From Phycisphaerae bacterium (GTDB lineage: Bacteria > Planctomycetota > Phycisphaerae > UBA1845 > Fen-1342), in the NCBI GenBank assembly GCA_022072445.1, contig JAJVHV010000002.1, forward strand, positions 124,001-188,000: DNA of 64,000 nucleotides. The letters are read 5' to 3'. Below the pieces are notes generated by a model, which searched no databases, had not been told where the DNA came from, and saw nothing but the letters and a program-made list of their open reading frames with translations. The translations under genes were made by a program, and so were the position numbers. Below are positions 40,683 to 58,299 of the stretch, one piece after another. The stretch's first letter is position 1. The number at the start of each line of letters is the position of its first letter.

Positions 40683-40754
40683 TCCCCGATAGCTCAATGG
40701 TAGAGCACCCGGCTGTTAACCGGGTTGTTGCAGGTTCGAGTCCTGCTCGGGGAG
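40683..40754 (+). tRNA. tRNA-Asn (GUU)
   Basis: A 72-nt cloverleaf. The acceptor stem TCCCCGA (40683-40689) pairs with TCGGGGA (40747-40753). The D-arm is GCTCAATGGTAGAGC. The anticodon arm is CCCGG-CTGTTAA-CCGGG with anticodon GTT at 40715-40717. The T-arm CAGGTTCGAGTCCTG has the standard TTC loop. The CCA end is not encoded. It is followed by a T-run (CTTTTTG). The 3' half is overlapped on the other strand by the end of a serine recombinase gene. Confidence 0.96.
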
Positions 40755-42242
40755 CTTTTTGTTCCAGTCCTCGAACCGTCGCGCGTTCGGTAACGCGTAC
40801 CAGACCTCGACGGTTCGGCGGTCGTGGATGAGCACCTTCTTCACCAGCCGGTGGAGGAGGTGCTTCTTTTGTGGAACCGGGCCGGCGGCCAAAACCTCCT
40901 CGAAGTTGTCGACCAGGGCCGCGAGCATCTCCCGGTCGATCGAGGGCAGTTCCAGCCGCTCCCGCCGGGCCTCCAGGTCACGCTTCTCGGCGTCCAATTG
41001 TTCGACCCGGCCGTGGAGGTCCGCGACCTTCTGGTTGCAGAGTTCGGCCTTGAGCGTCCCGGCCTCGAACGCCTCGAAGTAACGCTCGATCGACGCCCTG
41101 ACCTTGGCAACCTCGGCCTCGACCCGTGCGATCTCCTTCTCGACGTCCGGCTTCTCGGCGCCCAGGCGGCGGTTCGCCTCCTCCCAGACGCGGGCCATGA
41201 AGTCATCGTCGCGGAACATCGCCTTGATGTCCTGCACGATCGCCGCCTCCAGAAGCTCGGCCCGCACGTAGTCCTGTTTGCACACGTGGTCATTGAAGCG
41301 CTTCGAGCAGACGTAGTACGGGATGTAGCGGCCGTTCTTCTGGCCGCCGCCGCCGAACATGTGCGAGTTGCACAGGGCACACTTGATGACGCCCGAAAGC
41401 AGTCGCTCGTCGCCGTTGTGCCACTGGCGGCCCTTCAGATCTTCGTGCCGATCGTCGAGAACCTCCCGCGCCTTCTCGAACAGCACGTCCGAGACGACCG
41501 GGTCGTGCTGACCCTGGTAGAGCACGTCGCGCCAGCGAATCTTGCCGACGTAGACCGGGTTTTTGAGCATGTAGAGGACGACGCGCCGGCCCCACTTTCG
41601 GCCGTTGCGGTTTCGCAGGCCCGCGTCGTTGAGCTTCGTGCAGATTGTGGACGCACCTTCCCGGCCCAGCGCGTACATCGTGAACATCTTGCGGACGATC
41701 AGCGCCTCTTCCTCGTGGATCACCAGGCGCTTGTCGTCGTCGAGCCGGTAGCCGTACGGGACGTTGCCGCCGACGTAACTGCCGGTCTTCGCCTTCCGCT
41801 CCAGGCCGACCCGAGTCCGCTCGACGATCGTCGCGTGCTCGAATTCGGCGAAGACGCCGAGCATCTGGAGCATCATCTTGCCGGCGGCGTTCGACGTATC
41901 GAACGGCTCGGTGATGCTCTTTAGCGTGACGCCGCTCTTCGTGAGGTCGTCCACCATCTGGGCGAGCTCGCGGACCTTGCGGGAGAGGCGATCCACACGA
42001 AAGACCAGCAGCACGTCGAACGCGCGGGACTCGGCGTCGAAGAGCATCTCCTCGAGGCCGGGCCGGTTCATATGCGTGCCGGACTCGGTGTCGCGAAAGA
42101 GCTTGTGGAGCGTCCAGTCGTCGCCGTACTGGGACTTGCAGTACGCCTCCAGCCGGTCCTTCTGGGCGTCGAGCGAGAACTTCTGATGGTCCTCGTCGGT
42201 GCTGATCCGGGTGTAGAAGGCGACCCGCGGCACGGTTCGCAT
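40716..42242 (-). CDS. Large serine recombinase (site-specific integrase)
   Basis: 508 aa from the ATG at 42242 (MRTVPRVAFYTRISTDEDHQ). The resolvase domain has the catalytic serine S14 in YTRISTDED and the conserved LLVFRVDRLSRKVREL and GVFAEFEHATIVERTRVGLE. The Recombinase domain follows (PYGYRLDDDKRLVIHEEEA, STICTKLNDAGLRNRNGRKW), then a zinc ribbon (CALCNSHMFGG...CSKRFNDHVC) and a long coiled coil (about residues 380-440). Its last residues (EQDSNLQQPG) are encoded across the 3' half of the tRNA-Asn gene, the normal layout of an integrase next to its attachment site. A LexA-type palindrome lies about 160 bases upstream of its start. Confidence 0.93.
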   Translation of the reverse strand: MRTVPRVAFYTRISTDEDHQKFSLDAQKDRLEAYCKSQYGDDWTLHKLFRDTESGTHMNRPGLEEMLFDAESRAFDVLLVFRVDRLSRKVRELAQMVDDLTKSGVTLKSITEPFDTSNAAGKMMLQMLGVFAEFEHATIVERTRVGLERKAKTGSYVGGNVPYGYRLDDDKRLVIHEEEALIVRKMFTMYALGREGASTICTKLNDAGLRNRNGRKWGRRVVLYMLKNPVYVGKIRWRDVLYQGQHDPVVSDVLFEKAREVLDDRHEDLKGRQWHNGDERLLSGVIKCALCNSHMFGGGGQKNGRYIPYYVCSKRFNDHVCKQDYVRAELLEAAIVQDIKAMFRDDDFMARVWEEANRRLGAEKPDVEKEIARVEAEVAKVRASIERYFEAFEAGTLKAELCNQKVADLHGRVEQLDAEKRDLEARRERLELPSIDREMLAALVDNFEEVLAAGPVPQKKHLLHRLVKKVLIHDRRTVEVWYALPNARRFEDWNKKLPEQDSNLQQPG

Positions 42243-42400
42243 CGCTCCTATCGTCTTGCCGCCGCATGATTTACGCGCGCCGGCACGAGCGACACCCTTG
42301 CTCGGTTCCGGCCGGGAATCAAGTCCATTTTTCGCGGGTTCCACGAATTGAGAAAGGCCGGTCGGCGAGCATCGATGGGGACCGAAACCCCGCTATCGCA

Positions 42401-42416
42401 TCTAACGGTTGTTAGA
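42401..42416. promoter_or_regulatory. LexA-type operator upstream of the recombinase
   Basis: TCTAACGGTTGTTAGA is a perfect TCTAAC-N4-GTTAGA palindrome. It is the same arrangement as in the lexA promoter at 44530-44545. It lies in the gap between the recombinase start (42242) and the end of the UbiA-like gene, so it can control the recombinase. Confidence 0.65.
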
Positions 42417-42478: not shown

Positions 42479-44236
42479 TCACAGCTGCCGTCCTCCGGGC
42501 ACGGAGCGGCGATCTTCCGGCGGCACATCCGCGACATCTCTGCCTCGGCTCAGTGAGACACGCCCGCTGCCGTGTCTGCGCAGGCCGTGTAACTTCGCAT
42601 ACGCCCCAGCGGCTGGAATAGCCAACAAACCCAGAGCGCACACAAGTACATCCTTAGAGGCGCTACCAGGGAGTCCAACTCCGACAGTCACGAGACAAGC
42701 GTACTTGACTCCCAGAAACCACAAATGCGACTCGCGCTTCCGACTCAGGAACGTTGCCGCAAGTCCAAGGGGGAGTAGGGCTACCGCACTTGTGACGACC
42801 ACGGATAGCGCAACGATCGACAAAACGGACAGGATAGTCACGAGTGCCCGCGCCCAGCGCAGGGAGATGAGCGCGAGCGTGCTCGTTCCTGCTTTTCTGT
42901 CGACGTGCGCATCCCTGACGTCGCCCAGAATGTTACCTGCGGCATCGAGGAGACCCACGCCCGCAGCCAATAGCGCGCTTGCGCTCGTCGTTCCACAAAT
43001 CGAGGCAGTGGCGACTGCCCCGGTAGCCGTTACACACCCACGAAGCAGGTTGGCCACAACTGGGCTGCTCTTGAGGATTCCGTAGAGGCATCCAAACAGA
43101 GTACTCACCAGGACGATTGCTGGGGTGAGGGCGCTAGCAGTAGCAGCAAGGCCAATTGCAAAGGCAAGGAGAGAAAGGCTAAGTGGAATCAGAATCCATG
43201 AGGCACGGCCTCGACCACGGTCGGCACGAGCATCCCGCTCCTGATGGACGAAGTCATGAAGAGCGAGCATCGATATCCAAACCAACGGTCCGAGCAGAAG
43301 CGACAATGCGAAGTCAGCGGCGGTTGGAGACCGTTGTCCCGTCATTACCCCGCATACGCCGACCAAAGCTACGTAGGGAATACTATAGGGTCTGGAGAGG
43401 TTCGCGAATTTCACCACCGCCGACCGAACCAATAAGGAGACAGGACGCGGCGATCTGGCGCGCAGATAGCGAAGTGCGACCTGTGCCGGGTCCGCATAAT
43501 GCATGTATCCGAATTGCGCCACGATCAGGATGGTCATCACGACGATCACGAACAAAGCAGGAGCTCGTGCGGAAATGGGCAGGGCTAGAAACGCCGTACA
43601 CCACGCGAGGTCATAGATGACCTTTCGAGACATGACAGCCGCGTTCACGTCCCACAGACAACGCTCGTCGTCTCCCACGCCAGGATTACTGCGAGCGGAA
43701 CGACGACAGGCACGGTATCCCTGTGCGTACTTTAATGCCGCAGAGAGAAAGAGGGCGGAAAGTGAGAGGCCGAGAATCCGGAGGTTTTCCACTCCAACGA
43801 TCACTGCCACACCGCAGGCCGCGACGAAGCAATCGAGGAGCAGGTCGACCGGACCAGTCGAAGGACTCACGTGATAAAGATAGTCGTTGTAACGATAAAA
43901 AAAACGCGCATACACGACAAAGGTGAGAGTAAGCGCGAGGAGAACCTGCATAAACTCCAGCGTAGCACCGGGTTGTATGGGACGCAGGAATCCCCAGGGA
44001 AAGCCGGGATTGGGGGCTGCACCGAAGAACTGAACGATGAGGATGGCGTAACGGACGGCTAGCCAGGTGCCACAGAGGTAGACCAAGAACATGGCCGGCT
44101 GCGCGGGACTCTTCCGACCGGCTAGCGCACCGGTCGGGAAAAGGGCCACCGCGCCGCGAGCACGCAGGGCTACAGCAAGGTGCTCGTCGAACGGCGGTCT
44201 AGGCCGCAGCTCATCAGAATTCTGCTCGGCGCTCAT
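42479..44236 (-). CDS. Polytopic membrane protein with C-terminal UbiA-like prenyltransferase domain
   Basis: 585 aa. Residues about 50-240 form an N-terminal membrane domain with several helices (FLVYLCGTWLAVRYAILIV, FMQVLLALTLTFVVYARFF, CGVAVIVGVENLRILGLSL) of unknown family. The C-terminal half (about 270-560) is UbiA-like: LHDFVHQERDARADRGRG (near 325) in the place of the first Asp-rich motif, and LLDAAGNILGDVRDAHVDRK (near 427) as the second. The first motif is degenerate compared with NDxxDxxxD. Base composition is somewhat lower in GC than the genes around it. The start used has no strong ribosome-binding site. Confidence 0.65.
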   Translation of the reverse strand: MSAEQNSDELRPRPPFDEHLAVALRARGAVALFPTGALAGRKSPAQPAMFLVYLCGTWLAVRYAILIVQFFGAAPNPGFPWGFLRPIQPGATLEFMQVLLALTLTFVVYARFFYRYNDYLYHVSPSTGPVDLLLDCFVAACGVAVIVGVENLRILGLSLSALFLSAALKYAQGYRACRRSARSNPGVGDDERCLWDVNAAVMSRKVIYDLAWCTAFLALPISARAPALFVIVVMTILIVAQFGYMHYADPAQVALRYLRARSPRPVSLLVRSAVVKFANLSRPYSIPYVALVGVCGVMTGQRSPTAADFALSLLLGPLVWISMLALHDFVHQERDARADRGRGRASWILIPLSLSLLAFAIGLAATASALTPAIVLVSTLFGCLYGILKSSPVVANLLRGCVTATGAVATASICGTTSASALLAAGVGLLDAAGNILGDVRDAHVDRKAGTSTLALISLRWARALVTILSVLSIVALSVVVTSAVALLPLGLAATFLSRKRESHLWFLGVKYACLVTVGVGLPGSASKDVLVCALGLLAIPAAGAYAKLHGLRRHGSGRVSLSRGRDVADVPPEDRRSVPGGRQL

Positions 44237-44583
44237 CCGCTATGCTCAGTCGCTAGGCGCTGCACGAGAGGAACGACGGGCTCGCGCCTGCGCGCGACGG
44301 CCAAAGTATATCGCCAGCGCACCCGCGGTGGGTAGCGGCGGCGGGTTCGTGTTTCCGATTGGCCTCAGTCCATAGCTGCGCGCCCGGAAAGTGCGCCGGG
44401 AGGCCAGGCCGCTCTGCTCAGAGTCACAACCCCTTCTCTTTCCTGAAGTTATGAAGCCTCGGGTGGGTGTGTGACACCGCAGAAGCCCGCCCACCATCGG
44501 TCGATGGAGACTCGGTCGGCTCTGTCACATCTAACGCGCGTTAGATACAATGCCTCCGGTATTGGCGAACCCGAGGAGCATCT
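44237..44583. other. Divergent intergenic region containing the lexA promoter
   Basis: About 347 bases. Besides the lexA promoter/operator (44522-44551) and the ribosome-binding site GAGGAG just before 44584, there is no gene or repeat that I can support. Confidence 0.5.
44522..44551 (+). promoter_or_regulatory. lexA promoter with palindromic operator between -35 and -10
   Basis: CTGTCA (44522-44527) and TACAAT (44546-44551) are separated by 18 bases. The spacer is almost entirely occupied by ATCTAACGCGCGTTAGAT (44529-44546), a perfect 18-bp palindrome with a TCTAAC-N4-GTTAGA core. A repressor bound here would block RNA polymerase directly. Confidence 0.75.
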
Positions 44584-45213
44584 ATGCCTGGAGGCGGCCA
44601 GACCCCGCTGACGGCGCATCAACTGGCGATCCTGGACTGGATCAAGCAGTTCATTCGCACCCACGCCATGCCGCCGACCGTGCGCGAAATCGGCGCCGCA
44701 TTCGACATCAAGAGTTCGAGCGTCTTCGCATTACTGAAAGCGCTCGAAAGGAAGGGCGCTCTTCAGCGCGGCGAGCTCGGCGCGAGGTCCCTGATCATCC
44801 ACGACGCACGTCGGCGCGGCCGGGACGGCGTGGTGGAGGTGTCGATCATCGGTCGCATCGCTGCTGGGCGACCCATCGAGGCCATTGAAGGCGATCGTGG
44901 CACCGTGAGCGTCAGGCGCGACCTGCTTCGTGGGCAACCCGGATACGCGCTCCAGGTCGTCGGCGACAGCATGATCGACGCCGGCATCCTAAACGGCGAT
45001 TACGTCGTCGTCCGTAAGCAGGAGACGGCGGACGACGGGGACATCGTCGTCGCGCTGATCGGCGACGAGGCGACGTTGAAGCGAATCTTCCGCGAACGCG
45101 ATGGGGTGTGGTTGGAACCGGCCAACAGAGCCTTGCGACCCATCTGGGTGCGAAACGACGACTTCCGCGTTCAAGGCAAGGTCGTTGGGGTCCATCGCGT
45201 GATGGAGTCGTGA
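44584..45213 (+). CDS. lexA: LexA-family repressor (S24 autopeptidase)
   Basis: 209 aa with GAGGAG upstream of the ATG. The N-terminal winged helix reads LTAHQLAILDWIKQFIRTHA, PPTVREIGAAFDIKSSSVFA, LLKALERKGALQRG. The S24 domain has the cleavage site A94-G95 in RIAAGRP, the catalytic serine S129 in VVGDSMIDAGILNGDYVVV and the lysine K166 in DEATLKRIF. It should self-cleave when RecA filaments form, lifting repression. Its own promoter carries a palindrome also found ahead of the recombinase. It is within the island, so it may be the element's own repressor rather than the host LexA. Two unknown genes follow on the same strand. Confidence 0.93.
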   Translation: MPGGGQTPLTAHQLAILDWIKQFIRTHAMPPTVREIGAAFDIKSSSVFALLKALERKGALQRGELGARSLIIHDARRRGRDGVVEVSIIGRIAAGRPIEAIEGDRGTVSVRRDLLRGQPGYALQVVGDSMIDAGILNGDYVVVRKQETADDGDIVVALIGDEATLKRIFRERDGVWLEPANRALRPIWVRNDDFRVQGKVVGVHRVMES

Positions 45214-45232
45214 TCAAGCAGGTTGACAGCAG

Positions 45233-46387
45233 ATGGCACAACACGGATTCCGCAATTTCGGCAGTCTCACGTTCCTGCAAGGCATTGACAAGCCCAAGTT
45301 CCTTACTCCGCTGCTCAAGCGCCACGTCAGGTACTTCAAACGGCACGGGGTTGACGTCGCCGCACTGGACAACGACGACGCGACCGATCGCAAACTCCTG
45401 GAAGTGTTCACTCAGCCGAAGGAGGACACGCCAACTGATCTGCGCGAAGCGCTCCATATGCTCGACAACGTGTCCGATGAAGTGGGCCGCGATCGAATAC
45501 AGGCCGAACTGGATCGAACGCGCCGCCGGGTCAGCGGCCTCAACGACGCCACTCCGGGGGAGTTCGCCATCGCCGTCTATCTGCGGAGCCCGGAGGTAAT
45601 CCAGAACTGCTATGACCAAACGATCAGCGAGCAGGTCAAACAGTACGACGAGTATCAGTCCCTCAGCAATCGGAGGCTCACGCTTGCCCTCGCCAGGAGG
45701 AAGAGAGGCGAGCTCGAACGCGCGCTATCGAAGTGGTTCATGGGCCGGGGCCGAGGCGGCCTTTGCGAGATATATGTCTACTCCGAGGAAGCGGAGATCG
45801 TCTTCGTCATCACGCATGGGCGAAACTACCGCAGCGTCGGCGCCGTCGAGAAAGACCGACGTCGATCGCGCGTGACATACCGACCGCAAAAGCACGACAC
45901 CGTGGTGTTCAACACGCAGACGCGCATCCTAAAACTGCATGCCCAATTCTCGAACGAAAAGGACTCGTATCGGCGCTGCTTCGGTGAGGTCTTGTTCGGC
46001 AACCCGGTGAACTTCCCGGACTCCGACATCTACTTCCTGAAGCCGATTCAGAAGCGTAACTTCAAGTTGAAGATCACGCCCGGCATTGAGTCTGCGCGAA
46101 TGTCAGAGGTATGGACCGTGGTCCACGACGAGCAACACTTACTGATGCGATGCTCGGCCTACGACGTATTGACGAGCGCGCGACGACGCGGTCACCCGAA
46201 TCTGCAGGAAGGCGACGTAATCCGGGGCGCGTTCATGATCAAGTACTCCAGCGGGGGTCGTGAGCGGAAAGTGGAACTGCGCCCTTCCAATGTCGCAGTC
46301 TACGATCGCGACCGGGACACCGCGGCGACCGAGCGGTTCATCCAGGAGAACGGCTTCCTGAGAGTGAAGCGCGCCGATGGAAAATAG
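45233..46387 (+). CDS. Unknown protein in the lexA operon
   Basis: 384 aa, start ATG 20 bases after the lexA stop. It begins MAQHGFRNFGSLTFLQGI and is a soluble, basic, mixed alpha/beta protein. The N-terminal third is helical and charged (LREALHMLDNVSDEVGRDRI). The middle has strand-like segments (CEIYVYSEEAEIVFVITHGR, RVTYRPQKHDTVVFNTQTRI) and the C-terminus another (VWTVVHDEQHLLMRCSAYDV). No signal, membrane segment or enzyme motif is visible. It overlaps the next gene by 11 bases. If lexA controls its operon, this protein is damage-inducible. I do not recognise the family. Confidence 0.65.
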   Translation: MAQHGFRNFGSLTFLQGIDKPKFLTPLLKRHVRYFKRHGVDVAALDNDDATDRKLLEVFTQPKEDTPTDLREALHMLDNVSDEVGRDRIQAELDRTRRRVSGLNDATPGEFAIAVYLRSPEVIQNCYDQTISEQVKQYDEYQSLSNRRLTLALARRKRGELERALSKWFMGRGRGGLCEIYVYSEEAEIVFVITHGRNYRSVGAVEKDRRRSRVTYRPQKHDTVVFNTQTRILKLHAQFSNEKDSYRRCFGEVLFGNPVNFPDSDIYFLKPIQKRNFKLKITPGIESARMSEVWTVVHDEQHLLMRCSAYDVLTSARRRGHPNLQEGDVIRGAFMIKYSSGGRERKVELRPSNVAVYDRDRDTAATERFIQENGFLRVKRADGK

Positions 46388-46979
46388 CCCGACCTCGTTG
46401 CGGCCGTTTTGGGAGGCTCTGGAAACGAATTTCCCGCTTGCGGGAGTTCGGAAGTCGTTGAATGACCTTTTGAGCGAGTCGCTGGTTGAGGCGCTTGAGC
46501 AATCCGCTCTATTCCGCTTCGAACGGCAATCGCCTGTCTACCCGTGCCCGAAGCCCGGCGGCGCGGGATGCCCACGACATATCCGCGTGCGTCGGGATGG
46601 TCGAATCGTCGCGATATGCGGCAACCACCCTCCTGAGTGCGACGATGTGATGCTGTCCGACCGCGAGGCGGAGCTGATCGGCGTGAATCCAGAGGAACTC
46701 GTTGCTGCGCTGCGCGAACCGCTCCTGTTCGGCGGCACCGACAACATTGAGACCGAGCTACGCCACGTGTACCTGGGGGGTGCCTATCTTCCCTTCTGGA
46801 CGGCCGTGGTGGTCTTCACCTTCACGCGCGGCGTCGGCGACCTGGCCGGCTGGATATTCACATCCGCCGCATGCTCGTCCGCAGCGGTGCTGATGGGCGC
46901 ACTCCAAGGTAGGGGCGTCCCGCCGCGTGGCGCTGAGCGCGCTGTCGGCGCTGCGGGCTGCAAGGATTGCGGGAAATAG
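46377..46979 (+). CDS. Unknown protein with four-cysteine zinc site and a hydrophobic C-terminus
   Basis: 200 aa, overlapping the preceding gene by 11 bases. A likely zinc site is formed by CPKPGGAGCPRHIRVRRDG and ICGNHPPEC (about residues 59-98). The region DREAELIGVNPEELVAAL follows, then a hydrophobic stretch (YLPFWTAVVVFTFTRGVG, IFTSAACSSAAVLMGAL) that may be one or two membrane helices, then a cysteine pair CKDC at the end. The C-terminal 50 residues look unlike the rest and could reflect a frameshift. Third gene of the lexA unit; function unknown. Confidence 0.55.
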   Translation: MENSPTSLRPFWEALETNFPLAGVRKSLNDLLSESLVEALEQSALFRFERQSPVYPCPKPGGAGCPRHIRVRRDGRIVAICGNHPPECDDVMLSDREAELIGVNPEELVAALREPLLFGGTDNIETELRHVYLGGAYLPFWTAVVVFTFTRGVGDLAGWIFTSAACSSAAVLMGALQGRGVPPRGAERAVGAAGCKDCGK

Positions 46980-47029
46980 TGTGGTCAGCCCACGCGAGGA
47001 TTGTGCGCGGCCCAGCAAGCCAACCGGGC

Positions 47030-47341
47030 TCACACGGCCAGTAGTCGCTCGATCTGCGCTGCCCGCTTGCGGATCGTCCCCATCGAGACGCCGAAGAGCG
47101 CCTCGACCTCGCTGTTGAGCAGACCAGGAACACCGCAAGCTCGCCGGTCCTGGTTGGCCAAGCTGTAGATGATGCCGGCGGCCCAGCCTTCCGGCTTGCC
47201 CCGGAGCGGTGTCTCACAAGCCGCCAGCAATCGAAGGGCCTTAAGGGCACGTCTCTGTGTTGCCGTGTCAGGGTGATCGCCGAAGAAGCGTTCGAGGCTG
47301 TTCCGGCAGGAACGCTCGTCCGTCTGGGGCTGTGCAGCCAT
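47030..47341 (-). CDS. Small DUF6398-like helix-turn-helix protein
   Basis: 103 aa from the ATG at 47341, with GGAG seven bases upstream. The pattern RGKPEGWAAGIIYSLANQDR followed by GLLNSEVEALFGVSMGTIRK fits the small DUF6398-type (cyclin-like) fold with a helix-turn-helix near the end (VEALFGVSMGTIRKRAAQI). Probably a DNA-binding regulator. It is divergent from the CARF/sigma-54 gene, and both share a 109-bp spacer with inverted repeats and an extended -10 for this gene. The domain name is from memory of the motif and is the weakest part of the call. Confidence 0.6.
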   Translation of the reverse strand: MAAQPQTDERSCRNSLERFFGDHPDTATQRRALKALRLLAACETPLRGKPEGWAAGIIYSLANQDRRACGVPGLLNSEVEALFGVSMGTIRKRAAQIERLLAV

Positions 47342-47408
47342 TCCGCCGCTCCGCTTTTCGAAGTCGCCGGCTCCCGCGTTCTGAGCCGTCTTGTACGCCG
47401 ATGCCGCG

Positions 47409-47438
47409 TTGGTACAATGCGCGTTGTTATTATACCAA
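47409..47438. promoter_or_regulatory. Divergent control region with inverted repeats and an extended -10
   Basis: TTGGTA (47409-47414) and TACCAA (47433-47438) form an outer inverted repeat; ACAATGCGCGTTGT (47414-47427) is an inner imperfect palindrome. On the minus strand the sequence reads TTGGTATAAT, a perfect -10 (47434-47429) with TGn extension, serving the helix-turn-helix gene. The palindromes lie over its start point and could be its own operator or a site for the divergent regulator. Confidence 0.5.
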
Positions 47439-47450
47439 ATTCTTTGTGAC

Positions 47451-49043
47451 ATGAAGACGATCCGCATTCTAGTTTCATGGGTCGGCAAGACCGATCTGCT
47501 GTGCATGACGCCCGATCTCTCGGAGGCGCAGCAGGTCGAGACCTTTCGGCTGCTCGGCGAGAAACCAGCGAAGGCGAAGCAGCCTGGGCCGCTCCGCACG
47601 CTCGTTGAACTCGAGTTATTCGACGGCATCCACCTGATCAGCAATTATCCGGCGAAGTTGAATCGATGGTTCGCCGAGTGGTTGGGCCATGACGCCGCCG
47701 TACGCTCGGTGGAGCTGGTTGACCCAACCGACTATCCGGCGGTGTTCCGCGTAGCGGACGCGTTCCTCGGGGAGGTCGCGAAGGCACCGGCCGGCGGGCG
47801 TCTCGACCTTAGCATCCACCTGAGCTCCGGTACGCCGACGATGGCCGCGATCTGGGTGCTGCTCGGCAAGAGCAAGTATCCGGCCACGTTCTACCAGACC
47901 TACGCCGGCCAGGCCCGCCGGACCGAAATCCCGTTCGATCTTGTGCTCGACTACGTGCCCGAGTTGCTCAGGGAATCCGACCAGCTCTTCCAGCATCTCG
48001 CCGTGCGCGGGCCGCAGGACGTCGCCGGGTTCGAACAGATCGTTGGTGACAGCAAGCCGATTCGGATCGCCGTAGGTCGAGCGCACAAGGCGGCCGTTCG
48101 CGACGTGCCGGTACTACTCGTCGGCGAAAGCGGCGTGGGTAAGGAGCTCTTTGCTCGTGCGATCCACGCTGCCAGTAGGCGGCGCGACAAGCCATTCGTC
48201 GCGATCAACTGCGCCGCAGTTCCGAAGGACCTGCTCGAATCCGACCTTTTCGGCCATAAGAAGGGCGCGTTCACCGGCGCGACACATGAACACGCCGGGC
48301 GTTTCGAAGAGGCCGACGGCGGGACGCTCTTTCTGGACGAGATCGCCGAATTCGATCCTGCCCTCCAGTCGAAACTGCTGCGCGTCCTTCAGCCGGTGCC
48401 GGGCGGGCGGCCGAGTGATCTGGTTCTCCAGCGTGTCGGCGAGACGAAGGATAGGAAGGTGAACGTCCGCATCATCGCGGCCACGAATCAGGACCTGCTG
48501 GCCCGTATGAACGAGAACCGCTTTCGTCGCGATCTCTACTACCGGCTGGCGGTGGTCACGCTGAAGCTGCCGCCGCTTCGACACCGGAAAACCGACATTC
48601 CAGCAATCGCGGGGGCCCTGCTCGCCAGGATCAACGAGCAGTTCGCCCACGACGAGCCGGGCTACCGCCACAAATCCCTTTCTGCCGCCGCCATGCAGTT
48701 TGTGAGGACCTACGCCTGGCCCGGCAACGTGCGGCAGCTGAATAGTGCGTTGCTCCAGGCGGCCGTAATGTCGGCCAGCGACAGGATCGAACGGGCTGAG
48801 ATCGAGGCGGCGCTCGCCGAAGGGCCAGCGGAAGTCGCAACGCGGGATTGGTCCGAGCACCCGCTCGGTGACGGCTTTGACGTGGAAAAACACCTTGAGG
48901 AGCTTCACCGGCGGTACCTCGCCCGGGCAATGCAGGAGGCGGGCGGCGTGAAGGCCCGGGCCGCGAAGCTGCTCGGGATGCGGAACTACCAGACGCTCGA
49001 CGCGCAGCTCAAACGGCTGGGCGTTGACTGGAAGTCGCCGTAG
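47451..49043 (+). CDS. RtcR-like sigma-54 activator with N-terminal CARF-like sensor domain
   Basis: 530 aa from the ATG at 47451 (MKTIRILVSWVGKTDLLCM). Residues about 1-190 are a Rossmann-like sensor whose signature LDLSIHLSSGTPTMAAIWVL (about 118-137) matches the nucleotide-contact loop of CARF domains, as in RtcR and CRISPR ancillary proteins. The AAA+ domain follows: Walker A GESGVGKE (about 224), the sigma-54 contact loop GAFTGA (about 272), Walker B GTLFLDEIAEF, R-finger region NRFRRDLYYRLAVV. The C-terminal HTH is ARAAKLLGMRNYQTLDAQLK. It should bind a signal nucleotide or RNA end and then open a sigma-54 promoter. Such a promoter lies 22 bases past its stop, ahead of the next gene. 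No rtcA or rtcB is present nearby. Confidence 0.88.
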   Translation: MKTIRILVSWVGKTDLLCMTPDLSEAQQVETFRLLGEKPAKAKQPGPLRTLVELELFDGIHLISNYPAKLNRWFAEWLGHDAAVRSVELVDPTDYPAVFRVADAFLGEVAKAPAGGRLDLSIHLSSGTPTMAAIWVLLGKSKYPATFYQTYAGQARRTEIPFDLVLDYVPELLRESDQLFQHLAVRGPQDVAGFEQIVGDSKPIRIAVGRAHKAAVRDVPVLLVGESGVGKELFARAIHAASRRRDKPFVAINCAAVPKDLLESDLFGHKKGAFTGATHEHAGRFEEADGGTLFLDEIAEFDPALQSKLLRVLQPVPGGRPSDLVLQRVGETKDRKVNVRIIAATNQDLLARMNENRFRRDLYYRLAVVTLKLPPLRHRKTDIPAIAGALLARINEQFAHDEPGYRHKSLSAAAMQFVRTYAWPGNVRQLNSALLQAAVMSASDRIERAEIEAALAEGPAEVATRDWSEHPLGDGFDVEKHLEELHRRYLARAMQEAGGVKARAAKLLGMRNYQTLDAQLKRLGVDWKSP

Positions 49044-49064
49044 TTCGCGCGGCGTGATCGGGAC

Positions 49065-49080
49065 TGGCACGCGGCATGCA
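49065..49080 (+). promoter_or_regulatory. Sigma-54 (-24/-12) promoter
   Basis: TGGCACGCGGCATGCA has the invariant GG (49066-49067) and GC (49078-49079) exactly ten bases apart, and matches the consensus TGGCACG-N4-TTGCA at all fixed positions but one. It is located between the sigma-54 activator (stop 49043) and the gene starting at 49144. The predicted start is near 49091, so coding sequence cannot begin before it. Confidence 0.75.
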
Positions 49081-49143
49081 GCGGACGAGGTCGGCCGCCA
49101 GTTTGGGCGATGGGTGGCCTACGACCTCGAGGAGTGCGGTGCG

Positions 49144-50853
49144 ATGGCGGTTCAACTGGGCATGCAGTTGCACTACCGCTGCGTGTTTGACGTGACGGCG
49201 CCAGGCGAGGCGGCGGCCATCTGGTCCGACCTAGCAAAGTCCATCCGCGCCTGGATCGCGGGCAAGGAGGCCACGAACGAAGCCTTCTTCAGCCGGTGGT
49301 TCTTCGCCGGGGGCGAATGGAAGCCGCCGGGCCAGCCGCGCGTGTTCGTAAATACCGAGCGATTCGTCGGCGACGGCACCGAGACCGCGCCGCAATTCTG
49401 GTCGATCCGGTACGAGCACCCATGCAGCGACGTTCCGTTCAGGCAGTGGCGGACTGACATCGGTATCGGCGCCACCGGTGATGGGCGATACCGTCTTTCG
49501 CTCGTCACCGCACATTGGCTGCTCGACGATTTCTCGCTCGCGCGGACGACTATGCCCTTGCCATCGGCGCCACGGATTGTGTCGAATCTGGTTTCCTCGC
49601 AGGTCTGGACAGCCGCCGCCGGGTCCGAGCTACTGCGTGCCCGGCCGAATACGGTCCGCGTTGGAGAAGGTAATCTGCTCGTCGAGCGCATCACCGATCC
49701 GCAGCGTCTCTGCCCGCTCATCTACGTGAGCCGTGAGAACGATACGGACGCGCCCAAGGTCGATGCGGCGCGGCTCGCCCGGCAGCTCGCCGGCACAGCC
49801 GTCGTCTACGAGGCCGCATCCCGCGAGCTGAACGACGAGCTTGGTTGGTTGATGCCCTCCGAGTTTCAGTGTCGCGGAGGGATGGTGCGGGTCTACCAGC
49901 CGAGCGTTCACGTCGATCGCGCTGGCGATTTCCGGCGGCACCGGTTCTTTACGCGGGACGCGATTGGCGAGCGCGGCGCCGAGCAGGTCGAGAACCAGAT
50001 CATCGAGGCGATCACCCGTCGCGTCGGCACCGCGATCTCCGATGCCGTGACGACGGTGGAAGACGTGGTCGCGAAACAGCGCGAGGCGCGGCTTGCGGAG
50101 CTGCGACCGACGACCGTCGACGACTCCACTCGGGAGTGGATCAGTCTTCTGGAGGCTGACAACGCCCGCCTGATCGAGGAGAGCAGGACTTTCAAGAGCC
50201 GGATCGAGCAGCTGAGCGACCGCGTCGAGTTCGCCGAGGTGGAGAAGGCGGAGGTCGTGGACGAACTCTCCGATGCGAAGGCCCGTCAGCAGCAGGAGAT
50301 GCAGTTCCGGTTTCAAGCCGAGTCGCGCGTTCGCACGCTGGAGCGCCAGCGGGACTTCGCCGACGCGTTAAAGTCGCTGCCGGAATCGCTGCCAGAGATC
50401 ATCGAGCTGATCGAGCGCATCCATGCGGACCGAGTCGCCTTCACCGACCGCGCCCGGAAATCGGCCGCCGACGCACGGATCAATGAGGAGCGCGGCGAGA
50501 TGTTCGAGGCCTGGCGGTGCCTCTGGGCCGTGGCCACGGACCTCCACGACCTGTGCTTCGGCGACGATAACGAGCCGGGGCGACTGATCGACACGTTCAG
50601 ATCGCGCACGGGGTTCGACATCGCACTTACGGAGACCAAGCAGACGAAGCGGGACAACAAACTGATGGCCCTGCGGAAGGACGCGTTCAACGGCGAGGAG
50701 ATCAACATCACGCCGCACGTCAAGTACGGAAGCAAGGAGCCCAAGTGCCTGCGCGTCCACTTCCACGCGTACCGGAATGGCGACCGGAAACTCATCGTCG
50801 TCGGGCACTGCGGTGATCATCTGGATACGTACGGCACGCAGAAGCGAAGGTGA
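49144..50853 (+). CDS. Large coiled-coil protein of unknown function, predicted target of the CARF/sigma-54 regulator
   Basis: 569 aa from the ATG at 49144, with GAGGAG nine bases before it. The frame is open further upstream to 49024, but that part carries the sigma-54 promoter. Residues 1-290 are globular (WSIRYEHPCSDVPFRQWRTD, CPLIYVSRENDTDAPKVDAA, ARQLAGTAVVYEAASRELND, CRGGMVRVYQPSVHVD); residues about 290-440 are a long coiled coil (ISLLEADNARLIEESRTF, VEFAEVEKAEVVDELSDA); the end is a compact basic domain (FNGEEINITPHVKYGSKEPK, LIVVGHCGDHLDTYGT). No known enzyme motif was recognised. Its link with an RNA/nucleotide-sensing activator suggests a stress- or infection-induced effector. Confidence 0.7.
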   Translation: MAVQLGMQLHYRCVFDVTAPGEAAAIWSDLAKSIRAWIAGKEATNEAFFSRWFFAGGEWKPPGQPRVFVNTERFVGDGTETAPQFWSIRYEHPCSDVPFRQWRTDIGIGATGDGRYRLSLVTAHWLLDDFSLARTTMPLPSAPRIVSNLVSSQVWTAAAGSELLRARPNTVRVGEGNLLVERITDPQRLCPLIYVSRENDTDAPKVDAARLARQLAGTAVVYEAASRELNDELGWLMPSEFQCRGGMVRVYQPSVHVDRAGDFRRHRFFTRDAIGERGAEQVENQIIEAITRRVGTAISDAVTTVEDVVAKQREARLAELRPTTVDDSTREWISLLEADNARLIEESRTFKSRIEQLSDRVEFAEVEKAEVVDELSDAKARQQQEMQFRFQAESRVRTLERQRDFADALKSLPESLPEIIELIERIHADRVAFTDRARKSAADARINEERGEMFEAWRCLWAVATDLHDLCFGDDNEPGRLIDTFRSRTGFDIALTETKQTKRDNKLMALRKDAFNGEEINITPHVKYGSKEPKCLRVHFHAYRNGDRKLIVVGHCGDHLDTYGTQKRR

Positions 50854-50879
50854 CCGCCGGGCTGACGGAGCGACCTCGG

Positions 50880-51671
50880 ATGACAATGCGACTGTCAATT
50901 GCAGGCCTTCTCGTGGCGCTCACGTCCGGCTGCGCCTTGCACAACGTCGGTTACAACACGTTCGTGAAGAACAAGATCGAGCCGGTCGATCATGCCACAG
51001 TCGTTCACGGTACGATCGATGAGTCCAAGCGGCTCACCGAACAGGCCCAGCTTCCGCATAACACGCCGAGGCAGCGCTATGAGCTTGAGCGCGAAGCCGG
51101 CAAGCTGCTTCGCGCGCAGCTCGGATCACAAGACTACCTCGTTATCGGCGAAGTCTTTGGCGGAGGGAATGCGTATTCGACCCTGGAGACGCTGAAAGCA
51201 GCGTTCGCCAAGAAGGCGGCAAACCGAGGCGGCGACGTTGTGCTGATTTTCAGTACCGGGGTTGAGGAGCGCCCGTTCGTCTACAGCACGCCCGGTCACG
51301 CCAAGACGAACGTGTACGGTTCCGCGTACAGCTACGGCAACTACGCGTCCGGTCAAGCCACGGCCTACACGACCTACACCCCAGGCCAGACGTACGCAGG
51401 CGTCATGCGCTTTCCGCGGGCGAACGGCCTCGTTTTCAAGTACGTGCCCGGCATCGAACTGAAGCGCGAAGCGATCAACTCGCTCGCCGACCCTGATCTA
51501 GAGCGTGCCCTGCGGGAACTCGATGCCCTTCGAGCTGACGACTCAATCACGCTGGGGGAGGCCGTTCGGCGCTGGGGCGAGCTCACTGGTCAGCGCGACA
51601 CGGAAAGCAAACGCGGGTCCGCGCTGAACGGGGCGCAAACCCAAGGAGCACCACATGGCAAGAGGCCCTGA
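50880..51671 (+). CDS. Lipoprotein of unknown function
   Basis: 263 aa from the ATG at 50880, with a lipoprotein signal peptide (MRLSIAGLLVALTSGCA; lipobox TSGC). The mature part contains a strand-helix region (LVIGEVFGGGNAYSTLETLK, AAFAKKAANRGGDVVLIFST) and a Tyr/Ser/Gly-rich stretch (VYGSAYSYGNYASGQATAYT), and a helical C-terminus. A predicted outer-membrane or periplasmic lipoprotein in the middle of a defence-like region is unexpected. It overlaps the next gene by 17 bases. Confidence 0.65.
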   Translation: MTMRLSIAGLLVALTSGCALHNVGYNTFVKNKIEPVDHATVVHGTIDESKRLTEQAQLPHNTPRQRYELEREAGKLLRAQLGSQDYLVIGEVFGGGNAYSTLETLKAAFAKKAANRGGDVVLIFSTGVEERPFVYSTPGHAKTNVYGSAYSYGNYASGQATAYTTYTPGQTYAGVMRFPRANGLVFKYVPGIELKREAINSLADPDLERALRELDALRADDSITLGEAVRRWGELTGQRDTESKRGSALNGAQTQGAPHGKRP

Positions 51672-52281
51672 AGATCGCTACTACGAATTCGCCGAACAGG
51701 GCTGGCTCCCACCGCAAGAGGCTCGGTCGTACGTGTGCGGTTGGTGCGGTCGCACAGTTTCCTCGCAGCTCGGAATGGGAAAGAGCGAGCTCCGGATTGA
51801 ATCGAGCCCGCTGGCGCCGCTTGGCGTCCCGAACCAGTTCAGCCGGGATGTCCGGGTTTGCACCCACTGTGCCTGCGCCACGACGTTCATCGAGCACAAC
51901 CAGCTTCCAGGTCCGTTGCCGGGCGAACACTTCGAAGCCAAGGGCAAGGGCGAGCACGTTGAACTCATCGCAACGCTGTACAACGAAGCCAGGTTTGCAC
52001 TGCGTGACGGCGCCGCGAGCTGCGCGACACTCATGTTCCGCAAGCTGCTCATGCACGTCGCGGTTGAGCAGGGCGCCAAACCCGGCTTGAAGTTCGTGCA
52101 ATACGTCGAGCACCTGAAGGACGAGGGCGTCGTCGGCAAGCCGCAGCACGGCTTGCTGACCCGCATCAAGGACGCCGGCAACCTGGAGAACCATGAGGTG
52201 CGGCGGGCTTCTCCCCAAGAGGCGCGGGATTTGCTGGACCTCACGTCCCTTCTGATTCGGAGCGTCTATTTCGCGGCGTGA
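51655..52281 (+). CDS. DUF4145-domain protein with zinc ribbon
   Basis: 208 aa. A four-cysteine site, YVCGWCGRTVSS...VRVCTHCACA, opens the protein. The rest has the helical DUF4145 pattern: ATLYNEARFALRDGAASCAT, LMFRKLLMHVAVEQG, LKFVQYVEHLKDEGVVGKP, AGNLENHEVRRASPQEARDL, LDLTSLLIRSVYF. DUF4145 occurs on its own and fused to restriction enzymes, and is often found next to restriction-modification genes, as here (type III mod starts 39 bases downstream). Its exact role is unknown. Confidence 0.75.
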   Translation: MARGPEDRYYEFAEQGWLPPQEARSYVCGWCGRTVSSQLGMGKSELRIESSPLAPLGVPNQFSRDVRVCTHCACATTFIEHNQLPGPLPGEHFEAKGKGEHVELIATLYNEARFALRDGAASCATLMFRKLLMHVAVEQGAKPGLKFVQYVEHLKDEGVVGKPQHGLLTRIKDAGNLENHEVRRASPQEARDLLDLTSLLIRSVYFAA

Positions 52282-52319
52282 GCTGCTGCAGGCTGGCGGC
52301 AGGCGTGTGGAGACGGATA

Positions 52320-54815
52320 ATGGCGGTCAAGCAGACGGTTCTCGAAGCGCTCACGCGGCCGCGGCTGGCCGACCTCGTTCGGCGGTTTGACGGCGGTTCC
52401 GCGCGGGCCGGCGCGGCCAAGACCGAATTCGTGAGCCGCCTGGTACGCTGCCGTGGCGCCACGCTGGAAGCGCTCCTGGCGGCCCTGACGCGTGATGAGC
52501 TGAGGGCCGCGTGCGTTCGGCTTGGGCTGCCCGACGACGGGCGCGACAAGCGGACGTTGACCGAACGGATACTCGGCAACGGCCTGCTGGCGCGTGGTCG
52601 CGGTGGGCAGGCCAACTCGAAGACGGATCGACGCATGAACGAACAGACCTCGGCGACGAACCAAGGCCCGGCAGGAACCCGCCAACCGGGCACGCCCGTC
52701 GGCGGCGCCGCCGCCGCAAGCAGTCGCGCGCCTGGGATGCCCGCGGGCAGATCCCCACTGCCGTGGGGGCCGGACAACCCGCATCCGCTCTCGACGCTGA
52801 AGACGGAGCTGGTCTGGGAGGGCAAGTACGACGAGTACGGCAATCGCCGCGAGGTCGACGTGGCTGGTTGTGCCATGCCGCTCCAGAAGATCGAGACCAT
52901 CGATCAACCGCGTAGCGAAGCCGCCGCCGCCGGCCAGCTCGCCCTATTCGAGAAGCAGACGAAGCGGCTCGACGATTTCCGCAACATGCTCATCCGGGGC
53001 GACAATAAGCTCGTACTTGCGTCACTCTTGAAGGACTTTCGCGGAGAGATCGATCTCATATATATCGACCCGCCGTTCGATGTTGGCGCCGATTTCACGT
53101 TAGACGTTCCTATCGGCGAAGAGAATGAGAAAATCGGCAAGGATCAGTCTACGCTGGAAATGGTCGCGTACCGAGATACGTGGGGGCGCGGAACCGACTC
53201 GTACTTACACATGATGTATGAGCGGCTCATCCTGATGCGCGACCTCATCAGCGAGACCGGCAGCATCTTCGTGCATCTTGCCCCGACAGTAAGCCACTTG
53301 CTCAAGCTCGTGATGGACGAGGTGTTTACGACCGACAACTTTCGCAACGAGATTATCGTTCACCGCCCAATATCGAAGAACCTGCAGCGGCAATTTACGT
53401 CAATCAAAGCGCTGCCTCAGGGTCACGACGCGATTCTCTGGTACAGCCGCACTTCGAATACGCGGTTTCAGTCTCTTTACGTATCTCAGGAGGTCCGTGA
53501 GGAGGGCTACTGGCACCGTTTCTGGAGCGGAGCTGATCGCCCCACAATGCGCTACGAGTTACTTGGAGAGACCCCGACGCACGGGCAGTGGAAGTGGAAG
53601 AAAGAGCGTGCCCTGAAAGCAGTGGAGAACTACGAGCAGTACCTCCGCGATGGAAGAGGTCGCACTCTCGCACAATACTGGCGCGACACGGGCGAGCAAC
53701 TTGAGTTCATTCGGAAATCAGCAACTGGCACCGCGGAGAATTACTACCCACCACAGGATGAGAAGATTGCCGATACGATTTGGGAGGACGTAAAGGCGTA
53801 CGAGAATCAGAAGGATTTTCCAACGCAGAAACATCGGGAATTGCTAACTCGGATCATCGAGTTCGCAAGCGAGGGGGATCAGCTCGTTGCGGACTTCTTC
53901 TGTGGTTCTGGAACGACCGGCGTCATCGCTGAATCGCTTGGTCGGCGGTGGTTAATGTGCGACCTCGGTCGGTTCGGTATCCACGTCGCGCGAAAGCGCC
54001 TGATCGATACGCAACGGGCGTTGCACGAAGAGGGCAAGCCCTATCGGGCTTTCGATGTCCATAACCTCGGCCGGTACGAGCGCCAGTGGTGGCAAAAGGA
54101 GCGGCTGCAAGGAGCGGACGATGAGCACCGACGGCTTGTTTTGGAATTCTACCGCGCCGAGCCGATCAAGAGCGCGTCACCGCTGATCCACGGGCGCAAG
54201 GGTCCCGCGCTCGTCCATGTGGATTCGATCGACACCATGTTTACGCGCGACGAGGCGACGGCTGTCGCGAAGGCCGCCAAGGAGGCCGGGGCGAAGGAAG
54301 TCGCATGCCTGTCGTGGGAATTCGAGATGGACCTGCGGCTGCACACGCAGGCGCTGGAAAGCGAGCTGGGCGTCAAGCTCAAGCTCATCCCGATCCCGCG
54401 TGAGATCATGGAGCGCAACCGCAAGGAGCCGCCGCCGTTCCTCGAGATGGCCGTGCTGGAGGCCGAGCCGGTCTACCGCAAGCAGAACGGCAGGCGGACC
54501 GTCGACATCAAGCTCACGAAGTTTATGCCGTCGCTGGCGGAGGTGCCGAGCAAGGAGCTGGAAGCGCTGAAGGAGCGGGCCGTCAAGAGCGGGTTCGACT
54601 TCATCGACTTCTGGGCGGTCGATTTCGATTACCACGACGGACGGCCGTTCAGCCACCACTGGCAGGACTATCGCACGCGGAAGGGCCGCTCGCTCAAGAC
54701 CGTGTCCGACCAGCACTACGCCTACGCCAGACCGGGCAAGTACACGGCGTGCGTGAAGGTCGTGGACATCTTCGGCTGCGACACGTCGATCACCGTGGGG
54801 GTGGACTATGCCTAG
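52320..54815 (+). CDS. mod: Type III restriction-modification DNA methyltransferase (Mod)
   Basis: 831 aa from the ATG at 52320. A helical SAP/Rho-N-like domain comes first (residues about 1-85: LARPRLADLVRRFDGG-like, LEALLAALTRDELRAACVRL). The methyltransferase core follows with motif order IV then I (beta class): IDLIYIDPPFDVG (about residue 248) and LVADFFCGSGTTGVIAES (about 524). The region between them holds the target recognition domain. The C-terminal 250 residues are specific to this type III subgroup (DIKLTKFMPSLAEVPSKE, YAYARPGKYTACVKVVDIFG). It modifies adenine in the recognition site on one strand and is needed for Res to cut. The stop overlaps the res start by eight bases. Confidence 0.92.
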   Translation: MAVKQTVLEALTRPRLADLVRRFDGGSARAGAAKTEFVSRLVRCRGATLEALLAALTRDELRAACVRLGLPDDGRDKRTLTERILGNGLLARGRGGQANSKTDRRMNEQTSATNQGPAGTRQPGTPVGGAAAASSRAPGMPAGRSPLPWGPDNPHPLSTLKTELVWEGKYDEYGNRREVDVAGCAMPLQKIETIDQPRSEAAAAGQLALFEKQTKRLDDFRNMLIRGDNKLVLASLLKDFRGEIDLIYIDPPFDVGADFTLDVPIGEENEKIGKDQSTLEMVAYRDTWGRGTDSYLHMMYERLILMRDLISETGSIFVHLAPTVSHLLKLVMDEVFTTDNFRNEIIVHRPISKNLQRQFTSIKALPQGHDAILWYSRTSNTRFQSLYVSQEVREEGYWHRFWSGADRPTMRYELLGETPTHGQWKWKKERALKAVENYEQYLRDGRGRTLAQYWRDTGEQLEFIRKSATGTAENYYPPQDEKIADTIWEDVKAYENQKDFPTQKHRELLTRIIEFASEGDQLVADFFCGSGTTGVIAESLGRRWLMCDLGRFGIHVARKRLIDTQRALHEEGKPYRAFDVHNLGRYERQWWQKERLQGADDEHRRLVLEFYRAEPIKSASPLIHGRKGPALVHVDSIDTMFTRDEATAVAKAAKEAGAKEVACLSWEFEMDLRLHTQALESELGVKLKLIPIPREIMERNRKEPPPFLEMAVLEAEPVYRKQNGRRTVDIKLTKFMPSLAEVPSKELEALKERAVKSGFDFIDFWAVDFDYHDGRPFSHHWQDYRTRKGRSLKTVSDQHYAYARPGKYTACVKVVDIFGCDTSITVGVDYA

Positions 54816-57800: not shown

Positions 57801-58242
57801 GCCGATGGATGAGTTGGCTGAGGCGATCATGATCAAGCGCCTTGAGGGCGACGTCCCCACGGTGCCGGCGGACCAGCGCGTGTATTTCGAGCCGGACCTG
57901 TCGTCGCTCGACCCGCGCGATGCGAAGCGACTGCTAGATCGCGGGCGACAGCTGAGAAAGTTGCTCGTGTTTCGCACGCCCTTGATGCAGGTTGGCTTGC
58001 TCATCTTCTGCCTGGAGTACGCCGCCAAGACGAAGGCACCGCCGCCGGGCGTGCTGGCATCCATCGTCCGGAACATGGTGACGATCGATGGCCAGCTGCT
58101 CCAACGCGCCCAGTCCATGTACGACTTCCGCAACACGTACGTTGCCCATGTTAACGCGCAGTTGACCGACGCGGCGCTGGCGAGACGGTCGTTGAAGGAT
58201 TGGATCGAGGGTGTGATCGAACTGTTTGCCGTGGCTCAGTAG
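54808..58242 (+). CDS. res: Type III restriction enzyme, Res subunit
   Basis: 1144 aa. SF2 helicase motifs: Walker A KVATGAGKT (about residue 161), DEAH as VLNDEAHHVW (about 306), SAT as QLDFSATPKDD (about 343), motif V/VI as EQTLGRGLRRM (about 547). The C-terminal PD-(D/E)xK nuclease is YTPDFIVRRQDGHYHLVETKG-like, with D near 848 and ExK near 864. A helical tail of about 240 residues follows (KLPKRFRDQIEQAILLFRFL, SMYDFRNTYVAHVNAQLTDA) that is longer than in EcoP1I-type Res and resembles the abortive, HEPN-like or AbiV type of helical domain; that resemblance is tentative. It translocates or diffuses along DNA and cuts between two unmodified head-to-head sites. Confidence 0.93.
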   Translation: MPSRGAAAGGGPFINLDAIEPLFKPWDLPDRHRVRADRAGDPAIIKTGRRPSPIAFAQNLRELVTQWRESSYAGASDTTRELFEHWFERDHRVKAPNGQEVPFRYYFCQREAIETFVYLYEVRGIRSLSALTAEYGGPDAERAALGIDPDEDIWPKYAFKVATGAGKTKIMSMAIVWSYFHALRESDSSMARRFVVIAPNLTVFERLKEDFGHGRIFDADPLIPTPWRGDWNLSVVLQDEASGAATGGVLYLTNIHRLYDTSGRKRSSEADYYDWMGPKVSRATALDTGEELRKRITSHPRVMVLNDEAHHVWDPDSAWNEAIRYLHDSVRQKTGNGLVAQLDFSATPKDDRGNVFKHIVCDTPLGEAVDAGIVKTPVIGQTENLTERTHDDAGYRYEQHLLLGYRRWLQSKEEWEKSGKKALLFVMTESTEAANGIAKRLNSDPLFAELNGKTINLHTNLKGKLKKRRAGGREWYEFIEDEKQISDQDLEELRKLSRELDDSSSPYRCIVSVLMLREGWDVRNVTTIVPLRPYTSKANILPEQTLGRGLRRMTFPGDTAEIVTIVEHPAFSRLYQEELRQEGLDILVTDVDKVPSTTVTIFPDRTKQNFDQLDLLISRLTAQYRIVSKLENLTSDDVRDAFQKKGFKPLPLGGTTAAELDWEGKHLITGEIVEQMKVSLPLLENGVGAISFFRDELERITSIRGTHPILAPLIQQFIEDVLFEEKSSIFDARLVSRLADADVREHIRAVFVPLIRARTTKAEERLKSAEPISVCTWRPFQVTHSERHPTVPARKTPFNLVPCDRGLEVAMTEFADRAPDVGAFCKNTGPQCLRIDYLAAGGRLAFYTPDFIVRRQDGHYHLVETKGRADRDMAARARAAVEWCKSASTRKVKWDYLYVPQDIFARITRDTIDELARACAPALAELVEQAESPQLVLPFAEVAERERKQQVEEFISAADLEKLPKRFRDQIEQAILLFRFLERKESATFGSVFQPLLGPMDELAEAIMIKRLEGDVPTVPADQRVYFEPDLSSLDPRDAKRLLDRGRQLRKLLVFRTPLMQVGLLIFCLEYAAKTKAPPPGVLASIVRNMVTIDGQLLQRAQSMYDFRNTYVAHVNAQLTDAALARRSLKDWIEGVIELFAVAQ

Positions 58243-58299
58243 TGGCGGGCATTCGGCGAAGAAGAGCGCACACTGCTTGCTGTTGGGTGAGATTATCGC

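Follow-up and report, generated by a model that had tools for sequence, protein, structure and literature searches.

A LexA-headed gene pair of tailed phages, with a predicted RdgC/CENP-N-L fold, in a probable prophage remnant of a Phycisphaerae bacterium

The lexA-A-B locus

The window considered here, a stretch of 64,000 nucleotides from a Phycisphaerae bacterium, contains a lexA gene followed on the same strand by two further genes, called A and B below. The initial annotation put the three genes in the right places and reported the 11-base overlap of A and B correctly, but its 20-base spacer between lexA and A is in fact 19 bases long (45214-45232). A large serine recombinase is encoded divergently from lexA. 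The features are as follows (window coordinates):

40716-42344, minus strand: large serine recombinase (integrase), divergent from lexA, recognised by its Pfam domains
42401-42416, no strand: second copy of the predicted operator, TCTAACGGTTGTTAGA, 56 bp before the GTG and 158 bp before the ATG of the recombinase
44530-44545, no strand: predicted LexA operator TCTAACGCGCGTTAGA, a perfect palindrome, 38 bp 5' of the lexA start codon
44584-45213, plus strand: lexA, open frame with PF00717 and PF01726 matches and 196 bits to TIGR00498
45233-46387, plus strand: gene A, open frame of 384 aa; in the predicted model, a helical N-terminal part and then an RdgC/CENP-N-L fold (residues about 130-380)
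46377-46979, plus strand: gene B, open frame of 200 aa
46377-46791, plus strand: family part of B by profile match, residues 1 to about 138, with a four-cysteine site
46792-46979, plus strand: foreign tail of B, fused in frame, from blastn homology to other loci

The integrase likely starts at the ATG at 42242, with a GTG at 42344. It carries the Pfam domains Resolvase (1.2e-41), Recombinase (5.7e-18) and Zn_ribbon_recom (5.7e-14), and scores 815 bits against a recombinase profile that has this very sequence among its three building sequences. Between integrase and lexA sits a gene for a 585-aa hydrophobic protein (42479-44236), whose second half looks like a UbiA-type prenyltransferase by eye only; Pfam gave no such match.

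LexA and its predicted operator

The LexA of the window has DNA-binding and S24 domains and passes the curated TIGR00498 cut-off of 111 bits. It keeps the residues for self-cleavage (the A94-G95 bond, S129 and K166) at the spacing of E. coli LexA, where they are A84-G85, S119 and K156. A second LexA, 42% identical to it, is encoded on another contig of the genome (C49).

Which genes might this LexA control? The half-sites of TCTAACNNNNGTTAGA, with any four bases between them, occur exactly twice in the 5,249,578-bp genome, once 5' of lexA and once in the short gap 5' of the integrase. Base composition predicts 0.013-0.048 chance matches per genome, and the reversed control pattern has none genome-wide. 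Palindromes of the same 6-N4-6 form also lie 5' of lexA in phage relatives whose A follows a lexA gene: allowing no more than one mismatch, CCTGATN4ATCAGG was found within 250 bp 5' of lexA in 10 of 19 relative loci against 0.015 expected from shuffles (there are 22 LexA loci; L065, L066 and L068 have no upstream sequence and were left out). The palindromes in the window and its relatives make autoregulation of lexA-A-B through the predicted operator well supported, and the copy at the integrase makes it likely that the same LexA co-regulates that gene in the window. Induction of the unit by DNA damage would follow the same logic. Both the palindrome pair and the LexA cleavage residues fit the view that the three genes belong to a mobile element and are regulated together, probably in response to DNA damage in this case.

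A gene pair of tailed phages

The initial annotation called both genes unknown, and they are: NCBIfam and PADLOC searches gave no match for the window's A or B, and in Pfam and PHROGs only A had matches, both below threshold (E 0.02 and 0.18, respectively). As a lone query, A of the window matched 9 of 101 related genomes and found nothing in viral contigs. An alignment of eight members reached much further, with 72 loci in bacterial genomes of several phyla (25 of the 392 genomes of this phylum had matches) and 61 in viral contigs. Among the 101 related genomes, A occurs in nine, B in nine and both in eight. Relatives with an intact A include those in elements of Paracoccus kondratievae (L112) and Ruegeria intermedia (L107). 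Neither A from locus L027 nor B from locus L030 matched any INPHARED phage, and the same A had no match among PLSDB plasmids.

Gene context was studied in those 111 of the 133 loci that hold 85% or more of A and 1500 bases of upstream sequence; near-copies were kept, and contig ends often cut the flanks short. B was recognised by a strict rule in 103 of them. The other eight are contig ends or frame artefacts: four end at a contig edge (L051, L103, L120 and L141), and in L055, L094, L124 and L165 a B-matching frame is present and starts further upstream. Wherever both frames were found they overlap on one strand (86/86), and in L113/L031 and L184/L185 they are fused into a single frame. A serine recombinase lies near the pair in 83 of the 111 loci, with the integrase match downstream of it and up to 8 kb away in 25, and a sigma-like gene follows the pair in 85. 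Further 3', the loci looked at carry PDDEXK_1 (PD-(D/E)XK), AAA_24, DUF669 and helicase genes, and three viral contigs examined further have terminase, portal, capsid or tail-sheath genes. These virion genes, together with the integrase and the replication neighbours, therefore identify A-B as an early-gene pair of tailed phages. The pair is widespread and heads the replication/recombination block in most loci; none of Pfam, NCBIfam, PHROGs and PADLOC names it.

Is the pair tied to S24-family regulators, as had been proposed from this one locus? As a general rule it is not, since homologues occur mainly without one. Upstream of A, LexA is found in 21 of the 111 loci (in one, L047, the match is partial and 889 bases off), an ImmA-type regulator/peptidase in six and neither in 84, and S24 domains appear in six of the 50 viral records examined out of the 61. 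A-B therefore tracks serine-integrase phages and not S24 regulators as such. A proteins with a LexA in front form no single clade: the 80-row tree requires 10 changes, of which at least three are forced by well-supported branches. A clustering of upstream frames was set aside, as antisense shadow frames dominated it. The lexA-A-B unit represents one form of a phage module. Of the mutagenesis genes said to be missing, those of the Y-family polymerase type have no match on the window's contig; the sole such match of the genome (PF00817) lies on contig C11. A link of lexA-A-B to mutagenesis genes was rejected; none follows lexA, and the operon is a phage module.

Two side observations concern the relatives. 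In L042-L045, A is 96-98% identical across bins named Phycisphaerae, Ozemobacter, Desulfobacterium and Syntrophobacteraceae, which reflects either recent transfer of phage between phyla or binning errors. A small, HTH-like protein is conserved in several phages, its gene lying between that of the integrase and LexA or A (L044:5601-6071, L025:5474-5923); the L044 copy has no Pfam match, and the protein is a candidate directionality factor.

Predicted fold and divergence of protein A

The structure prediction proposed for the 384-aa protein gave an AlphaFold2 model, built from 80 sequences, with a pLDDT of 91.0. What does this model resemble? Foldseek placed E. coli RdgC at the top (E 2e-5, probability 1.00), followed by CENP-N (2.2e-3) and further CCAN chains, with whole-chain TM scores against RdgC of only 0.34-0.43. 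VIA-align gave the same picture: RdgC at Z 11.8 (226 residues, rmsd 6.5), Chl4 at 11.0 and CENP-L at 10.6, with the CENP-N/Chl4/Iml3 rows spanning 9.7-11.0 and 16 RdgC or kinetochore CENP-N/L rows preceding the first unrelated one (Z 8.4). Among the viral models of BFVD, named phage RdgC proteins matched at E 1.1e-4 to 3.3e-3, and phage proteins labelled 'exonuclease' or 'recombination-associated' from 4e-6. RexA was not among the 50 Foldseek and VIA-align matches listed for A. The RdgC alignment covers residues 130-380. N-terminal fragments of CENP-N align over residues 65-375 (189 of 205 residues for 6c0w, 192 of 207 for 6eqt), and therefore also cover the helices in front; these rows begin at residue 1 of CENP-N and residue 65-68 of A, and few rows cover the N-terminal part of A. 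A is thus predicted to have an RdgC/CENP-N-L fold, a likeness that by itself shows no function.

Sequence comparison did not pick up these relationships. Profile-profile alignment (hhalign) of A gave a probability of 1.3% with RdgC and 0.1% with RexA, and the profiles of A and B showed no signal with each other. Pfam hits of the 80 A members (E<=0.1) included neither an RdgC nor a CENP model, and a search of PDB sequences with the A profile (E<=10) returned chance matches only, with no CENP chain among them.

The A protein of the window is the most diverged of the family. Its end branch in the 80-row tree is about 3.4 changes per column, no other of the 80 members retains so few conserved columns (47 of 87), and the consensus arginines at 176, 194 and 201 are lost. 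It may therefore have drifted or changed function; drift may be continuing, or the loss of B may have been followed by a new role. Its frame is open over the full length and has an ordinary codon-position composition.

Protein B is truncated and chimeric in the window

B of the window has four cysteines (C57, C65, C81 and C88) whose matching family columns are Cys in 50, 48, 58 and 45 of 66 proteins, which bears out the zinc site read from the sequence at the outset. Intact B has 348-418 aa in the loci read, and most members have the four-cysteine site. A model of an intact B (353 aa, L042) has a pLDDT of 91.6 and an alpha/beta architecture. It found no match in Foldseek; VIA-align listed the Can2 nuclease (Z 7.9), PaqCI (6.4) and OmpR-type winged helices (about 5-5.7). 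These values are at the level of common arrangements, leaving 'nuclease-like' and 'winged helix' as weak leads. An active nuclease was rejected, as acidic and lysine columns all fall short of 90% conservation. A search of PDB sequences with the B profile returned chance matches only.

The sequence-only reading had missed that the window's B is cut. The family profile matches it over model positions 3-133 of 352 (E 2.6e-18), and the protein is a chimera that ends its family part at about residue 138, without the middle and C-terminal domains. Where does the rest come from? Homology to other planctomycete loci (blastn) sets in abruptly at 46792-46794, crosses the B stop codon into a gene on the opposite strand and ends at 47323. 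The foreign tail of B is the end of a 180-206-aa planctomycete protein from another cassette, joined in frame. A second junction of this kind is found in genome G010 (L032:2325-3473), where about 159 residues of A remain before the break (L032 position 2803), from which the frame runs on into the Cys-rich protein of a cassette of this type; XRE and ImmA genes still precede A. The cassette itself (46792-47344; L033-L038) consists of a long Cys-rich protein, small proteins and the 180-206-aa membrane-like protein ending in GCKxCGK, in some copies with a 105-aa gene on the other strand. What follows it differs between genomes; judged by eye, L037 and L038 seem to have type I restriction genes there.

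State of the element in this genome

How much of the phage is left? The window and the next 19.9 kb contain no match to the sigma-like, PDDEXK, AAA_24, DUF669, helicase or primase proteins or to intact B. Of nine phage-relative proteins sought there, only the small HTH protein (a distant match) and DUF2924 were found, 23-30 kb away and 6-12 kb past the right end of the window. Replication genes accompanying the integrase, which would mark an intact temperate prophage, were absent from the same region, and no exact 16-bp repeats that could mark the ends of the element were found. The simplest reading would be a prophage deleted internally, with its early end joined to a distal cassette. The window most likely holds that early end, and its predicted damage switch appears complete. 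Since B retains only 138 residues and the replication genes are gone, the unit probably still switches and no longer makes phage.

Directly behind the unit lies a defence-rich stretch (47391-60012). Its genes code for a CARF-type RtcR regulator (PADLOC RtcR_PspF2, E 2.9e-159) and a HEC-07-like protein (49024-50853). Also present are a type III methyltransferase, a ResIII protein and an AAA ATPase that matches NsnB/HEC. The CARF regulator ahead of the HEC-07-like gene may merit attention.

What could the pair do?

We put at roughly 60% the reading that lexA-A-B is the immunity and early end of a serine-integrase temperate tailed phage, internally deleted here, and that A is a DNA binder of the RdgC/RexA/CENP-N-L fold. 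The phage LexA would repress its own operon and the integrase through the predicted 16-bp palindrome. Judging from the operator and the cleavage residues, DNA damage would lead to RecA-assisted self-cleavage of LexA and release both units. A would be the earliest of the early products, along with its partner B, and once on DNA it would most likely modulate RecA-dependent recombination, or the repressor switch, while the phage is induced and replicates, as its fold and gene context suggest. Like RdgC and RexA, A would probably bind DNA and adjust recombination or induction; the earlier suggestion of an 'induction function' or 'damage-response factor' comes close to this model-based result. The second half of this machinery is lost in the present genome.

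The pair in the window might instead be functionless debris, with A drifting after the loss of the phage and of the working part of B. This is compatible with the role proposed for the family, and for this one copy we regard it as a serious, if less probable, option. A truncated, chimeric B, an absent early module and an A that is the most diverged of 80 and has lost conserved basic residues are what decay would leave behind; the full-length frame of A, its ordinary codon-position composition and its confident fold speak against it, as do a lexA, predicted operators and an integrase that look intact.

Could A-B instead work like lambda RexAB, as a module for superinfection exclusion or defence that the lysogen expresses along with its repressor to act against other phages? 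The gene order is that of cI-rexA-rexB on the lambda map (repressor, RdgC-fold protein, second protein), and the island in the window is rich in defence genes. PMC11077077 also reports that RexA homologues of other temperate phages exclude phages and that several adjoin repressors. However, B, with its 348-418 aa, zinc site and alpha/beta model, is unlike RexB (144 aa), PADLOC has no match for A or B, and in most loci the pair leads the replication/recombination block, which suggests lytic expression. We consider exclusion unlikely.

Less likely again is that A, B or both act on the serine integrase as its recombination directionality factor, switching it from integration to excision. The sequence diversity of such factors counts in favour, as do the integrase near the pair in 83 of 111 loci and the predicted operator shared by both units of the window. 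Yet the pair is large and related in fold to general DNA binders, the integrase match can be downstream and kilobases off (25 of 111 loci), and the small HTH genes beside the integrase are better candidates. A damage-induced toxin or toxin-antitoxin pair, suggested at first by two co-oriented, overlapping genes behind LexA, is very improbable: A is RdgC-like, B is broken in this genome and has no acidic or lysine column conserved at 90% in its family, and the 80 A and 66 B members show no toxin-family match beyond scattered weak ones (HicA in 3/80, best E 0.012), leaving the option without supporting evidence.

On the preferred reading, of a phage early module with a DNA-binding A, a widespread and unannotated phage gene pair gains a testable role. 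The predicted two-site regulon of the window would make the idea that phage clamps of the RdgC fold manage RecA at induction directly testable.

Comparison with known systems

LexA heading the mutagenesis genes imuA-imuB-dnaE2 is a known arrangement and, like the operon predicted here, an autoregulated one; the operon of the window differs in being a phage module with no mutagenesis gene after lexA. E. coli RdgC (PDB 2OWL) and the RdgC proteins carried by phages offer the best fold match for residues 130-380 of A, and RdgC shares with A its presence in phages. The two have no sequence homology, and A adds a helical N-terminal part and a constant partner, B. In PMC11077077, RexA, RdgC, Iml3 and Chl4 are described as having a common fold, RdgC as lowering RecA activity and LexA cleavage, and RexA as binding DNA and favouring induction; PMC4080450 likewise makes the structural link between Chl4/Iml3 and RdgC.

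A parallel in layout is lambda cI-rexA-rexB, where, as in the window, a LexA/S24-type repressor shares one unit with an RdgC-fold protein and a second gene. A gene pair directly behind a CI/LexA-type repressor is found in the window and in 21 of the 111 loci, whereas most A-B pairs have no S24 neighbour; A has no sequence similarity to RexA, and B is not like RexB (144 aa, lambda map). A would thus resemble parts of RdgC and RexA in action and by sequence belongs to neither family. It would be a third, sequence-unrelated family of the RdgC/RexA fold, in some phages wired to a self-cleaving LexA.

CENP-N/Chl4 and CENP-L/Iml3 of the inner kinetochore are eukaryotic and give no sequence signal with A, but the N-terminal fragments of CENP-N align with it beyond the RdgC-like part, and a search of the open-access literature for CENP-N with a phage structural homologue found nothing. 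A common fold is no proof of descent. The A family might be a bacterial and phage lineage with the domain order of CENP-N and a constant partner, with CENP-N and CENP-L descended from such DNA clamps of mobile elements, a speculation to which we give little credence. The CENP-N-like layout predicted for A also bears on the origin of that kinetochore fold.
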